The notes below the pieces were generated by a model that was not told where the DNA came from, ran no database searches, and was given only the letters and a program-made list of their open reading frames with translations. The translations under genes and the position numbers were made by a program. A DNA stretch of 37,198 bases from positions 1 to 37,198 of the IMG/VR virus record IMGVR_UViG_3300025759_000259, one strand, 5' to 3'. The stretch comes from a virus. Shown in pieces: positions 1,371 through 5,611 of the stretch. Positions within the stretch are counted from its first letter, which is position 1. Each line of letters starts with the position of its first letter.

Positions 1371-2941
1371 CATGGGTAAGCCACCAGCCTTGTCCCTATG
1401 AGGACTGCGGTAGCTCAGATGCGTTCAGCTACAACACAGAAAGCATGGCTGGCAGGTGTCATTCATGCGAGAGAAAGTATAGGTTCAACCAAGAAGAAAA
1501 GGATGACTGGGAAATGCCAGAGCAAGAACAGATAAGACCTGTCCCAACAGAAGTGCTGACCCCTGTCTATCGTAGTGTCAGAAGTATCAGCAAGGAAACC
1601 ATGGAGTTCTTTGGGGTCAAGACATTCTTGGATAGCCAAGGAAAAGAGATAAAGCAGGACTACCCATATCCATCAGGCGGCATCAAGACAAGGTTCTTCC
1701 CTAAGGAGTTCAGAGCTAAGAACCTGAAGACAGATGAGCTATTCGGAATGAACCTGTGGAATGCAGGATCAGGAAAGATCGTCACCATAACTGAGGGTGA
1801 GCTAGATGCCATGTCAGCCTATCAGATGTGTAAGAACCCTAAGTATGGTTCAGCATTTGTATCACTGCCATCAGCCACCCCTAGCAATAAGCTATGGGCT
1901 AACGTAACGGAGTGGCTCAAATCATTCGATAAGATTATCTTGTCAATAGAACATGATGACCAAGGGAATGCTGTAGCTCAACGCATAGCTAACCTATTCC
2001 CTAATAAGGTCTACAGGGTACAGCATGACAAATATAAGGATGCCAATGAGTTTCTTGAGGCAGGTGCAAGGAATGAGTTCTATCATGCATGGTACAACGC
2101 CAAGAAGTACACACCTGAGAACATACTGAATACCCCTGACCAGTTCCTTAAGTTATTCAATACGTCAGAGAACCATGTCTATGTTGAGACAGGCATACAG
2201 GACTTCGATGATCTATGCATGGGCCTGATGCAAGGACACTTCACATTGTTCAAGGCACAGACAGGTATAGGCAAGACAGAGTTCATGAGATACCTAGAGT
2301 ATCACATCCTAAAGAATTACCCTGAGATTTCTATAGCTGCATGGCACATGGAAGAGACAAAGCTACGTAGTCTGCTTGGTCTTGTGTCATACTATAGTAA
2401 CAAGAACCTTACCCGAAAGGATCTAATAGAACAAGAGCAAGCAGAAGAAGAAGTACAAAGGGCTATCGTAGATATAACAAAGGATGAGAGACTATACCAA
2501 TTCTTCCTTAATGATGAGGACGATCCCCTTGACATACTGGGACACATAAGGTATCTTTCTCAAGCTTGTGGTGTCCGATATGTATTCTTCGAACCTATCC
2601 AAGACATCGCAGCTAACATGGCAGGGGATGAAAGCAAAGAACAATTCTTAGCTGATCTATCTGTCAGACTATCTAAGTTAGCAGCTGAGTTAGGGGTAGG
2701 CATCATCACTATCGGACATACCAATGATGACGGGGCTGTCAAATACTGCCGCATGATCGAGCAAAGGGCATCAGTGGTTGTAGAATTACAACGTGACAAG
2801 ATGTCAGAAGACGCAGATGAGAGAAACACAACACGCCTACTGGTCACAAAGAATAGACCCGTTGGCCCCACAGGATACGCAGGTCAGCTATCGTTTGACC
2901 CAGCATCCTTTACACTTAAGGAAAAGTATGCAACATATTGA
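1361..2941 (+). CDS. Primase-helicase, T7 gp4-like
   Basis: A bifunctional replisome motor that primes lagging strands and unwinds the fork. An N-terminal zinc motif has C11, C16, C33 and C36 (T7 uses CxxC twice; here the first pair is C-x4-C). The Toprim primase core shows TEGELDA (E145, E147) and IILSIEHDDQG, where the usual DxD reads E197-x-D199. Walker A is QTGIGKT (300-306). The Walker B region is GVRYVFFEPIQD, followed by GIITIGHTND. Its 526 aa are close to T7 gp4 (566 aa). The ATG at 1361 follows AAGGAGAAGT. The polymerase ORFs come next. The family assignment is firm; the altered Toprim acid is worth checking. Confidence 0.95.
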   Translation: MGMTWVSHQPCPYEDCGSSDAFSYNTESMAGRCHSCERKYRFNQEEKDDWEMPEQEQIRPVPTEVLTPVYRSVRSISKETMEFFGVKTFLDSQGKEIKQDYPYPSGGIKTRFFPKEFRAKNLKTDELFGMNLWNAGSGKIVTITEGELDAMSAYQMCKNPKYGSAFVSLPSATPSNKLWANVTEWLKSFDKIILSIEHDDQGNAVAQRIANLFPNKVYRVQHDKYKDANEFLEAGARNEFYHAWYNAKKYTPENILNTPDQFLKLFNTSENHVYVETGIQDFDDLCMGLMQGHFTLFKAQTGIGKTEFMRYLEYHILKNYPEISIAAWHMEETKLRSLLGLVSYYSNKNLTRKDLIEQEQAEEEVQRAIVDITKDERLYQFFLNDEDDPLDILGHIRYLSQACGVRYVFFEPIQDIAANMAGDESKEQFLADLSVRLSKLAAELGVGIITIGHTNDDGAVKYCRMIEQRASVVVELQRDKMSEDADERNTTRLLVTKNRPVGPTGYAGQLSFDPASFTLKEKYATY

Positions 2942-3140
2942 TTTCTGGCCTACATTTAGTGCGGTGGTCTACTTCTTAGGAATGATCTTGCACTACTATC
3001 ATGTGCTCACAGTGTTTTACTTACAGGATATACCAGATGAGGAAAGGAGTAAGGTAAGGACAATGATGTTCTCTTTGATATGGCCTTGGACAGTTATATT
3101 GATGACAACGGGGTTGATGGGTGATGGTGATGATGACTAA
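2928..3140 (+). CDS. Small two-span membrane protein (70 aa)
   Basis: The frame starts at ATG 2928, inside the end of the primase-helicase gene, with AAGGAAAAGT directly before it. Two hydrophobic segments are clear: about residues 9-30 (VVYFLGMILHYYHVLTVFYL) and about 46-64 (MMFSLIWPWTVILMTTGLM). They are separated by a charged loop (DIPDEERSKVR), and the protein ends in GDGDDD. I do not recognise a family. Its position between helicase and polymerase suggests co-expression with replication. Membrane anchoring of replication or superinfection exclusion are possibilities, not shown. Confidence 0.6.
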   Translation: MQHIDFWPTFSAVVYFLGMILHYYHVLTVFYLQDIPDEERSKVRTMMFSLIWPWTVILMTTGLMGDGDDD

Positions 3141-4026
3141 TAAAATTGTAGCTATGGACATAGAGACAGATGCATTAGATGCCACAAGGATCTGGGTTAT
3201 CTGTGCTCAAGATGTCAACACAGGGGAAACAGAACAGTTCCTCAATGTTGACAGGATACCTGAGGAAAGGGAGAGGTTCATTGAATATTGTCGCACAATA
3301 CATACTTTTGTTTTCCACAATGGCATTGGCTTTGATGTCGGTGTTATTAATCGACTGGTCAAAGAGGATTGCATTGATCCTACTATGGTTCTCGATACTC
3401 TTATTCTGTCTCGCCTTATCCAATACGACTTAGAAGGTGGTCATAGTCTTAAGGCATGGGGTAAACGGCTTAGTGATTTCAAGATGGACTTCAAGGATTT
3501 CTCAGTGCTCACCCAAGAGATGATCGACTATTGTCATCAGGATGTAGCTGTCACAGTTAAGATCTATAAGAGGTTCTTAAGTGTTATCAGTAACCCAATG
3601 TGGCAAGATGCTATCAGATGTGAGCATGACATACAGATCCTGTGTGAAGAGATGACAAAGAATGGTTTCTATTTCGAGAAAGATAAAGCTGAACATCTTC
3701 TGGATGAGATAGAGCTACGCATGTGTGAATTAGAAGAAGGATTCCAACATGACTTTCCACCCAAACTAGAGGAAGTCAATAGGATTATCTATCGCAAGAA
3801 ACAAGATGGCTCATTGATGGCTAATGTTGTCAAGGCTAAAGAGAAATACCCGAAGACAGAAGTTGACAAGTCTACCTACCCACCTAATCTTATCTGCTAT
3901 GATTGGGTAGAGTTCAAACCATCGTCACCTAAGATGCGTATTGAAAGACTATGGCAAGCTGGCTGGAAACCAACAGACAAAACCAAGGGGCATATAGAAT
4001 ATGACAGAGAACAAAACCGTAGATAG
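3121..4026 (+). CDS. DNA polymerase, 3'-5' exonuclease part (split gene)
   Basis: This is the N-terminal proofreading half of a T7 gp5-like family A polymerase. Exo I is MDIETDAL (D13, E15), Exo II is VFHNGIGFD (N67, D72) and Exo III is YCHQD (Y137, D141), so all catalytic acids are present. The end (KPTDKTKGHIEYD) corresponds to the stretch just before the polymerase thumb in T7 gp5. The frame then stops at 4026, while the polymerase domain continues in the +1 frame from 4001. The start is uncertain: GTG 3121 and ATG 3124, 3130 and 3133 are all possible, and no strong ribosome binding site decides between them. The alternatives (true split, frameshift, 1-base sequence error) are set out in the findings. 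Confidence 0.88.
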   Translation: MMVMMTNKIVAMDIETDALDATRIWVICAQDVNTGETEQFLNVDRIPEERERFIEYCRTIHTFVFHNGIGFDVGVINRLVKEDCIDPTMVLDTLILSRLIQYDLEGGHSLKAWGKRLSDFKMDFKDFSVLTQEMIDYCHQDVAVTVKIYKRFLSVISNPMWQDAIRCEHDIQILCEEMTKNGFYFEKDKAEHLLDEIELRMCELEEGFQHDFPPKLEEVNRIIYRKKQDGSLMANVVKAKEKYPKTEVDKSTYPPNLICYDWVEFKPSSPKMRIERLWQAGWKPTDKTKGHIEYDREQNRR

Positions 4027-5032
4027 AGGGGCTAAGTTTGCTAGGTACGGATGGACCTTATCTGAGGCAAACCTTAGCACACTCCCTGAGACAGCCCCTG
4101 CAGGAGGCAAACGTCTGACTGAGTGGTTGACACTTGAAGGACGCAGAAGCTCACTGGTGGAGTGGCTAGGACACTGTGGTGACGATTCACGTATTCATGG
4201 TAAGTTCCAAGGGATAGGTGCATGGACAGGACGCATGGCACACAGAGCACCTAATCAAGCTAACATCCCAGCTGAGTTTCATGGTACACCTAAGTCAGCC
4301 GTAGATGAAGTGAAGGACAAGTATGATGGACAGTTCAGGGCATTGTGGTCAGTGCCTGAGGGCAGCTATCTAGTAGGCACAGATGCTGAGGGTATCCAGC
4401 TGCGTATCTTAGCTCACCTTATGAAGTCAGATGAGTATGTCCATGCGATTGTGTCAGGAAAGAAAGAGGATGAGACAGACATCCATAACGTAAACCGTAA
4501 GGCTCTGGGTATGTCACACGTAACAAGAGACATGGCTAAGACATTCATCTATGCCTTCTTGCTAGGTGCTGGCACAGGTAAAATCTCACAGATCCTAAAG
4601 GTCAGCCACAGAGAAGCCAGTCAAGCTGTCGATAACTTTATGGAATCAATTCAAGGACTTGCTGATCTAAAGAAGAAGGTCATACCTCATATAGCTAAAC
4701 GTAAATGGTTCAGGGGCTTAGATGGACGTAAGGTTCCTGTCCCTTCTGAGCACAAGACACTGGCAGGTATGCTGCAGAACGGTGAGTCAGTCATCATGAA
4801 ACACTCAGCCTTGCAATGGGTATCTCAGGCTAGACAGAAAGGTATAGACTTCAAGCTTGTCACATGGCCCCATGATGAATGGCAGACAGAAGTCTGTGGC
4901 GATTATGCAACAGCTGAGGAACTAGGCACAATCCAAAGACAGAGTATTGTTGACACTGGTGTTAAATTTGGTATGATGTGTCCGTTAGCTGGATCAACTG
5001 ACATAGGTAAGAACTGGAAGGATACTCACTGA
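4001..5032 (+). CDS. DNA polymerase, family A polymerase part (split gene)
   Basis: This is the C-terminal half of a T7 gp5-like replicative polymerase. GKFQGIGAWTGRMAHRAPNQ matches the conserved GR-motif region before the palm. Motif A is DAEGIQLR (D128). The O-helix motif B is RDMAKTFIYAFLLGAG (R176, K180, Y184). Motif C is PHDEWQ. Two residues differ from the family norm: Q133 where T7 E480 / E. coli E710 sits, and L188 where T7 Y530 / E. coli Y766 sits. ATG 4001 has AAGGGG about 10 nt upstream (3985-3990), so it could be translated separately. Without the N-terminal ORF it would lack proofreading. It ends in a TGATG overlap with the next small gene. Confidence 0.9.
   Translation: MTENKTVDRGAKFARYGWTLSEANLSTLPETAPAGGKRLTEWLTLEGRRSSLVEWLGHCGDDSRIHGKFQGIGAWTGRMAHRAPNQANIPAEFHGTPKSAVDEVKDKYDGQFRALWSVPEGSYLVGTDAEGIQLRILAHLMKSDEYVHAIVSGKKEDETDIHNVNRKALGMSHVTRDMAKTFIYAFLLGAGTGKISQILKVSHREASQAVDNFMESIQGLADLKKKVIPHIAKRKWFRGLDGRKVPVPSEHKTLAGMLQNGESVIMKHSALQWVSQARQKGIDFKLVTWPHDEWQTEVCGDYATAEELGTIQRQSIVDTGVKFGMMCPLAGSTDIGKNWKDTH
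4950..4977 (+). promoter_or_regulatory. Possible promoter TTGACA-16-TATGAT
   Basis: TTGACA at 4950-4955, a 16-nt spacer and TATGAT at 4972-4977, inside the polymerase 3' end and about 100 nt upstream of the stronger promoter at 5071-5099. It may be a secondary start for the SSB transcript. Confidence 0.4.
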
Positions 5033-5136
5033 TGGAATGGATAGTAGCTATACTTCCTATAATTTTTGTCTTGACAATCCAATCAATAATCTATATAATA
5101 AACAACTCAACAGCCAAAGGAGATAGCAATGGCTAA
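5032..5136 (+). CDS. Very small membrane protein (34 aa)
   Basis: The start codon overlaps the polymerase stop (TGATG), which implies translational coupling. AAGGA lies about 10 nt before it. The product is a single hydrophobic helix (residues about 3-23, WIVAILPIIFVLTIQSIIYI) with a short polar tail, and it ends 8 nt inside the SSB gene. The perfect promoter at 5071-5099 lies within it. The frame could partly be a by-product of an AT-rich promoter region, but the neat start overlap supports a real gene. The function is unknown. Confidence 0.5.
   Translation: MEWIVAILPIIFVLTIQSIIYIINNSTAKGDSNG
5071..5099 (+). promoter_or_regulatory. Perfect sigma70 promoter TTGACA-17-TATAAT
   Basis: TTGACA at 5071-5076, a 17-nt spacer and TATAAT at 5094-5099: 12 of 12 consensus bases. 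The start would be near 5106, about 23 nt before the SSB ATG, leaving just room for the AAAGGAGAT ribosome binding site. It should give strong SSB expression and continue into thyX. Confidence 0.88.
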
Positions 5137-5611
5137 AACTAAATACGGTGTATTCGAAGGTCAACTATACTATGCCCGTGTATTCACAGATAACATGGAT
5201 GACCATGAGTATCATGAGAAAACAAGTGGTCAGTTCAACACTGTCTTTGTCCCTAAGGATGACGCAGAGTTAAACAAGATGGTTGACTTAGGTTTCCCTG
5301 AGGTATCAATGGGTAACAAGATGATCAAGGAGTGGTCAGTTGCTGGTGACCGTAAGGGTATGAAACTTAAACGCCCTAACGTACACCCATCAGGTATCGA
5401 AGACTTCGGTGGAGCACCATCTGTAACTAAGGGTAAGACCAATACACCATGGGACTACATCGAAGATGGTGGCTTGGGTGATGGTACAAAAGCCCTTGTC
5501 AAGATCTCTATCTATGGCGAAGGATCGACAGCATCTGTTCGCCTAGAGAAGATCGGTGTGATTGAGCATGTACCAGTACAAGAGTCAGAGTTAGCTGAGG
5601 ATCGTTGGTAG
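5129..5611 (+). CDS. Single-stranded DNA-binding protein, T7 gp2.5-like
   Basis: A 160-aa protein that should coat single-stranded DNA at the fork and contact the polymerase and helicase. Evidence: its size, its place right after the polymerase, an OB-like beta-rich composition (for example KALVKISIYGEGSTASVRLEKIGV near the C-terminal third, split here only as a description), and an acidic C-terminal tail ending EDRW. T7 gp2.5 likewise ends in an acidic tail with a terminal aromatic (Phe) that is essential for partner contacts; here it is Trp. AAAGGAGATAGCAATG gives an excellent ribosome binding site, and a perfect promoter lies just upstream, fitting the high copy number SSBs need. Confidence 0.82.
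   Translation: MAKTKYGVFEGQLYYARVFTDNMDDHEYHEKTSGQFNTVFVPKDDAELNKMVDLGFPEVSMGNKMIKEWSVAGDRKGMKLKRPNVHPSGIEDFGGAPSVTKGKTNTPWDYIEDGGLGDGTKALVKISIYGEGSTASVRLEKIGVIEHVPVQESELAEDRW

Follow-up and report, generated by a model that had tools for sequence, protein, structure and literature searches.

A family A DNA polymerase encoded by two overlapping frames and cut in the thumb loop in a marine phage of the Zobellviridae

Two-piece polymerases in phages and the locus in the window

Split DNA polymerases have previously been noted in the Zobellviridae (PMC10143988). For instance, in the Methylophilales phages MEP401 and MEP402, which belong to another subfamily of the Zobellviridae than the phage described here, the polymerase gene is split at a different site (PMC10580990). 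The T4-like 43A/43B genes of Aeromonas phages 25 and 44RR and the nrdA gene of Aeh1, split by mobE, are two-piece genes associated with free-standing endonuclease genes, and their halves co-purify or make a working enzyme; gp43A and gp43B of Aeromonas phage 25 both co-purify and are active (PMC2988022).

The window analysed here is a whole stretch of 37,198 nucleotides (virus record IMGVR_UViG_3300025759_000259) from a marine phage that its relatives place in the genus Veravirus (Zobellviridae, Cobavirinae). As in 43A/43B and Aeh1 nrdA, an essential phage gene of replication or metabolism lies here in two pieces; unlike in those cases, the product is a family A polymerase rather than a family B polymerase or a ribonucleotide reductase, and the junction carries no endonuclease gene. 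Like the window, MEP401 and MEP402 distribute a family A polymerase and its exonuclease over two ORFs, but their break falls much further on, just before motif A, with a small ORF between the halves, and it is therefore distinct from the break in the window. The layout of the window is matched by the Roseobacter phage CRP-5 and the Lentibacter phage ICBM2, which have the same two genes, frames, overlap and start and differ in sequence only (polymerase 78% and 82% identical, exonuclease 64% and 69%, respectively). In ICBM2 the two genes are annotated as “DNA polymerase, 3'-5' exonuclease domain” and “DNA polymerase A, polymerase domain”, and the passages found in the CRP paper (PMC6918029) and the Cobavirus paper (PMC6775973) do not discuss the split. 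Neither the thumb-loop position nor the invariant start described below was found in the literature searched, mostly without subscription papers.

The first-pass annotation had assigned the three Exo motifs to the first frame and polymerase motifs A, B and C to the +1 frame, and both assignments agree with the domain matches (Table 1): Pfam finds PF01612 in the first ORF (E 2.3e-7) and PF00476 in the second (E 1.5e-30), and PHROGs likewise give a 3'-5' exonuclease and a family A polymerase. The best solved relative of both halves, in fold and in sequence, is T7 DNA polymerase (gene 5 protein). The catalytic residues of exonuclease and polymerase are unchanged in 48/48 aligned relatives, split and fused alike, and together with Exo I-III and motifs A, B and C they identify a T7-type family A polymerase with proofreading. 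ATG 3133 appears more likely than the upstream GTG to start the exonuclease gene, because homology to CRP-5 and the annotated CRP-5 start both begin there.

Several smaller observations concern the locus and its neighbours. Motif B reads FLLGAG in the window as compared to FLYGAG in T7 polymerase (4562-4564, polymerase residue 188); 44 of the 48 aligned cobavirus-like polymerases have Leu here, at the position of a Tyr that is conserved in many family A polymerases. A 72-aa hydrophobic ORF (2922-3140) between the primase-helicase and exonuclease genes overlaps both; CRP-5 and ICBM2 have a hypothetical gene at the matching place, and Pfam and PHROG searches gave no significant match. The 160-aa protein directly after the polymerase (5129-5611) matched nothing in Pfam or PHROG; judging by its location and its acidic aromatic C-terminus (ELAEDRW), it may be a T7 gp2.5-like single-strand binding protein.

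Table 1. Features of the polymerase locus in the window
Feature	Position	Strand	Remark
First ORF, exonuclease	3121-4026	+	Open from GTG 3121
First subunit gene	3133-4026	+	Start at ATG 3133 more likely; 3'-5' exonuclease domain and N-terminal part of polymerase domain (first half of thumb)
Exo I motif, D..E of DIET	3157-3165	+	First ORF
Exo II motif, HNGIGFD	3316-3336	+	First ORF
Exo III motif, YCHQD	3529-3543	+	First ORF
Shine-Dalgarno-like AAGGGG	3985-3990	+	10 nt spacing to polymerase ATG; AAAGGA, AAAGGG or AAGGGA in relatives
TAG in polymerase frame	3995-3997	+	Just 5' of ATG 4001; confines any joining shift to 3998-4026
Overlap of both frames, 26 nt	4001-4026	+	Within loop of variable length in fused relatives
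Second subunit gene	4001-5032	+	ATG 4001, 343 aa, +1 frame relative to exonuclease ORF; palm, fingers and what remains of the thumb (T7-type family A DNA polymerase)
Polymerase motif A, DAEGIQLR	4382-4405	+	Second ORF
Polymerase motif B, RDMAKTFIYAFLLGAG	4526-4573	+	Second ORF
Polymerase motif C, HDE	4871-4879	+	Second ORF

Position of the cut in the polymerase fold

Alignment puts the end of the first ORF at residues 329-357 of T7 polymerase, downstream of the exonuclease domain, and the cut therefore lies inside the polymerase domain. Whereas T7 polymerase consists of one chain, the window protein is interrupted in a loop of the thumb, at about T7 residue 360. The boundary between exonuclease and polymerase is elsewhere, and the earlier description of a gene split between these two domains has to be corrected in this respect. 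In fused relatives the corresponding stretch, between “KTKGH” and “YGW”, ranges from absent to about 20 residues above most relatives.

Evidence on the fold comes from an AlphaFold model of a naturally fused relative, L056, taken as one chain. The model has a pLDDT of 94.6 and matches T7 polymerase best among PDB structures (2ajq, Z 37.3, rmsd 2.5 over 541 residues, whole length), so that the two halves as one chain are predicted to adopt a T7-like overall fold. Confidence is high everywhere but in a loop at residues ~281-310, the least confident part, which holds the split site and lies between a helix at 266-275, after the thumb insertion, and a long helix at 336-360; we take these to be thumb helices from the match to T7 polymerase and the fold of that enzyme. 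When the polymerase half was folded alone the palm and fingers were confident and the first ~90 residues poor, which, with an alignment of only 14 rows, is no proof of a dependence of this half on the other but would be consistent with it.

Probable separate translation and the rival readings

In our preferred reading, to which we give a probability of roughly 0.88, a T7-type family A replicative polymerase is made from two overlapping, separately translated genes whose products assemble as two subunits. The first gene would supply the proofreading exonuclease and the first half of the thumb. For the second, initiation would occur at its own ATG, using a ribosome-binding site embedded in the last part of the first gene and probably aided by coupling to the translation of that gene; its product would contribute palm, fingers and what is left of the thumb. 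Both chains would then fold together into one proofreading polymerase, held mainly by contacts among the thumb helices and between exonuclease and palm, as in a single-chain polymerase. Most likely, an indel that changed the frame created the split, within a thumb loop that is dispensable, varies in length and already contained a start codon; in some relatives mobile endonuclease genes may have settled at the junction afterwards.

Sequence comparison shows that the split is conserved, that the start is invariant, that the frame switches there and that some relatives have inserted genes; separate translation in the window phage, assembly, activity and the origin of the split are inferences, for which split gp43 and NrdA (PMC2988022) serve as functional precedents. 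Two ORFs that together cover one polymerase recur in 89 distinct loci in all, CRP-5 and ICBM2 included, with identical frames and ATG and an overlap of 17-56 nt; checking relatives, as the first-pass annotation had proposed, turned up the frame relation again in the genomes of two isolates as well as at about 90 distinct loci. The polymerase ATG is kept in 89/89 Veravirus-like overlapping loci. The exonuclease-frame codon lying over it is TAT in all 89 (47 distinct junctions), as compared to 72% TAC (537/744) for Tyr codons elsewhere in the same exonuclease genes, and for the Gly of the ribosome-binding site the codon GGA or GGG is used in 90/90 overlapping loci, as compared to 65/98 fused relatives (GGT or GGC in 33/98); both biases were counted over related sequences and are hence no independent trials. 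The AAGGGG that had been suggested as a route to separate translation is present in the window. Third-position variation follows the exonuclease frame as far as the ATG and the polymerase frame beyond the overlap, with both frames constrained in the overlap itself. The second ORF accordingly has a conserved start and ribosome-binding site of its own, the Shine-Dalgarno-like site being a moderate one, since 22% of other ATGs in these genes score as well as the median polymerase start. Tightly coupled genes typically overlap by 1-4 nt, a range that the overlap here exceeds, and both points count against our preferred reading.

Loci with separated halves bear directly on the same question. In our survey of 253 distinct loci with both halves, the two were fused in 141, overlapped or nearly did so in 90 and stood 286-3216 nt apart in 22 (overlapping and separated classes counted from the gap list); these numbers mirror the queries used rather than natural frequencies. 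With 286-3216 nt of genes between the halves, frameshifting is unable to join them, and in these 22 loci the polymerase half must therefore be translated independently. Where genes have been inserted, the polymerase has a new start, usually with a ribosome-binding-like site of its own (e.g., AAGGGGTAACGTAATG in L075) and often overlapping the stop codon of the insert, as ATGGATGA. Taken together, the invariant ATG, the codon biases, the frame switch, the lack of a conserved shift site and the new starts behind inserts make separate initiation of the polymerase half very likely, as judged from sequence comparison.

Alternatively, a programmed +1 (or -2) ribosomal frameshift between 3998 and 4026 might produce a full-length polymerase, alone or beside two short proteins. 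The frames do differ by +1, the TAG said to limit any joining shift is indeed present, and if the ribosome shifted at about 4016, the linker would come close to the length found in fused relatives (CRP-4 and others). The AAAA run at 4013-4016 in the overlap, earlier taken as the obvious shift place, exists in the window, but it is missing in several lineages, e.g., GAGAACAATCAAGAG and GAGCAAGTAAAC, and no alternative shift-prone string is kept in all of them. In the exonuclease frame there is a single -1-type heptamer, AAAGGGA, which occurs in 12/49 junctions and would lead into the wrong frame (-1-type heptamers were scanned by script, +1 strings by eye on aligned junctions). The polymerase ATG, by contrast, is invariant as no shift site is, and frameshifting is unusable in loci with genes inserted between the halves. 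With no conserved shift site and an invariant internal start, we regard a programmed shift as improbable.

A degraded polymerase, the gene having been broken by fission so that only one half or the host polymerase works, is less probable again. A split within the thumb would normally be expected to damage the enzyme; nevertheless the exonuclease and polymerase catalytic residues are invariant over 48 rows each, variation dominated by third positions persists in both genes, and the order of the halves is constant over a diverse clade.

Introns and inteins are frequent in phage polymerase genes, and splicing of the split, of an intron at the RNA level or of an intein at the protein level, has to be weighed accordingly. 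An intron was suggested by the authors of the MEP401 study for their split gene (PMC10580990). In the window, however, the halves overlap with no intervening sequence between them, and the inserts in relatives end in their own stop codons, overlapping or adjoining the new polymerase start. Rfam gave no family at gathering score in the window and nine relatives, seven of which have inserts at the junction. We consider splicing highly improbable.

Finally, there is next to no probability that sequencing or assembly went wrong by one base in a gene that is normally fused: a single indel would suffice to join the frames and fused relatives are known, but the frame relation is repeated in independent isolate genomes and metagenome contigs, the polymerase ATG is upheld against codon preference, and two near-identical contigs from other metagenomes have the same junction (L008, polymerase 100% identical to the window; L009, with 55 mismatches over 5,571 ungapped bases, all of them outside 3796-4050). 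Thus, among the three options that the first-pass annotation had left open, the two-subunit polymerase is best supported, the programmed +1 shift finds no support and the one-base error is excluded.

History of the split and putative mobile genes at the junction

One fused gene is present in CRP-4, CRP-9, CRP-13 and SIO1. Pasto and S2B (Autographiviridae) and the AP013540 phage, considered as carriers of extra genes within the polymerase match, were all found fused. The overlapping form is typical of the clade of the window, and the T5S1-like clade has a separated form of its own; in T5S1 a stretch of 2.7 kb with the primase-helicase gene separates the halves, each of them a gene of its own. 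A single clade of all split loci is rejected (p-AU 6.7e-7), and the gene was therefore split, or re-fused, more than once.

A possible natural re-fusion is provided by L056, which has a continuous exonuclease-polymerase gene with an unrelated linker of ~19 residues (L056 1602-1690) and stands beside the split L041 with 98% DNA identity in the polymerase and 99% in the exonuclease. No match of note to the linker was found among the fetched loci. L056 could also be a chimeric contig, because its junction string is known from one contig only. A continuous gene in an identical context had been named beforehand as evidence against the split; L056 is continuous, but its context is not identical, the linker being different.

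Two further arrangements were seen among the relatives. In T5S1-like phages (L006 1395-5993; L249-L252) the primase-helicase is preceded by the exonuclease half and followed by the polymerase half, with runs of small ORFs between the halves, many ending in a “P.EF” motif (VPEEFMT, IPKEFLE). A stop codon interrupts the frame of the exonuclease half of L260 (4756-5652) inside the homologous stretch, and the gene may be split a second time there, be a broken copy or contain a sequence error.

Endonuclease genes lie between the halves only in relatives of the window, such as L065, L071, L075-L078 and L382-L384. Within its clade they belong to four families, namely HNH_3/AP2 (L065, L071), HNH with HTH_7 (L075-L078), T5orf172 (L382, L383; L385 is alike in spacing) and endonuclease VII (L384), and L069 has two unknown ORFs at the junction. 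The HNH genes of L075 and L076 are 98% identical, above the 77% of their polymerases and the 73% of their exonucleases, and the flanking genes of each are 93-98% identical to an insert-free relative, a pattern as expected of a putative mobile gene. Loci with inserts appear in the tree as tips dispersed among those with overlapping genes, and the split is therefore older than these inserts within the clade of the window. An origin of the split in the window via loss of an endonuclease is unsupported in this clade, where endonuclease-bearing tips adjoin near-identical endonuclease-free loci; the older event may still have come about in this way. No endonuclease insertion at this junction was found in the literature searched, mostly without subscription papers.

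Beyond the window, we lean towards a broader view in which a two-chain, thumb-cut replicative family A polymerase had its cut made, or undone, more than once at one loop, its junction being shared by at least four mobile endonuclease families that take over the polymerase start as the polymerase gains a new one.

The split is real and common to many relatives, and it is already on record for this phage family. The frame break is biology, error having been ruled out, and the position at which the enzyme is cut has been corrected; annotation pipelines should be cautious of “mending” the split polymerase gene. A two-piece family A polymerase with fused relatives, one of them a near neighbour at 98-99% DNA identity, would allow a direct test of how a replicative polymerase tolerates a cut in its thumb, and the series of four mobile endonuclease families at the junction represents a natural case for how such genes settle by essential genes.
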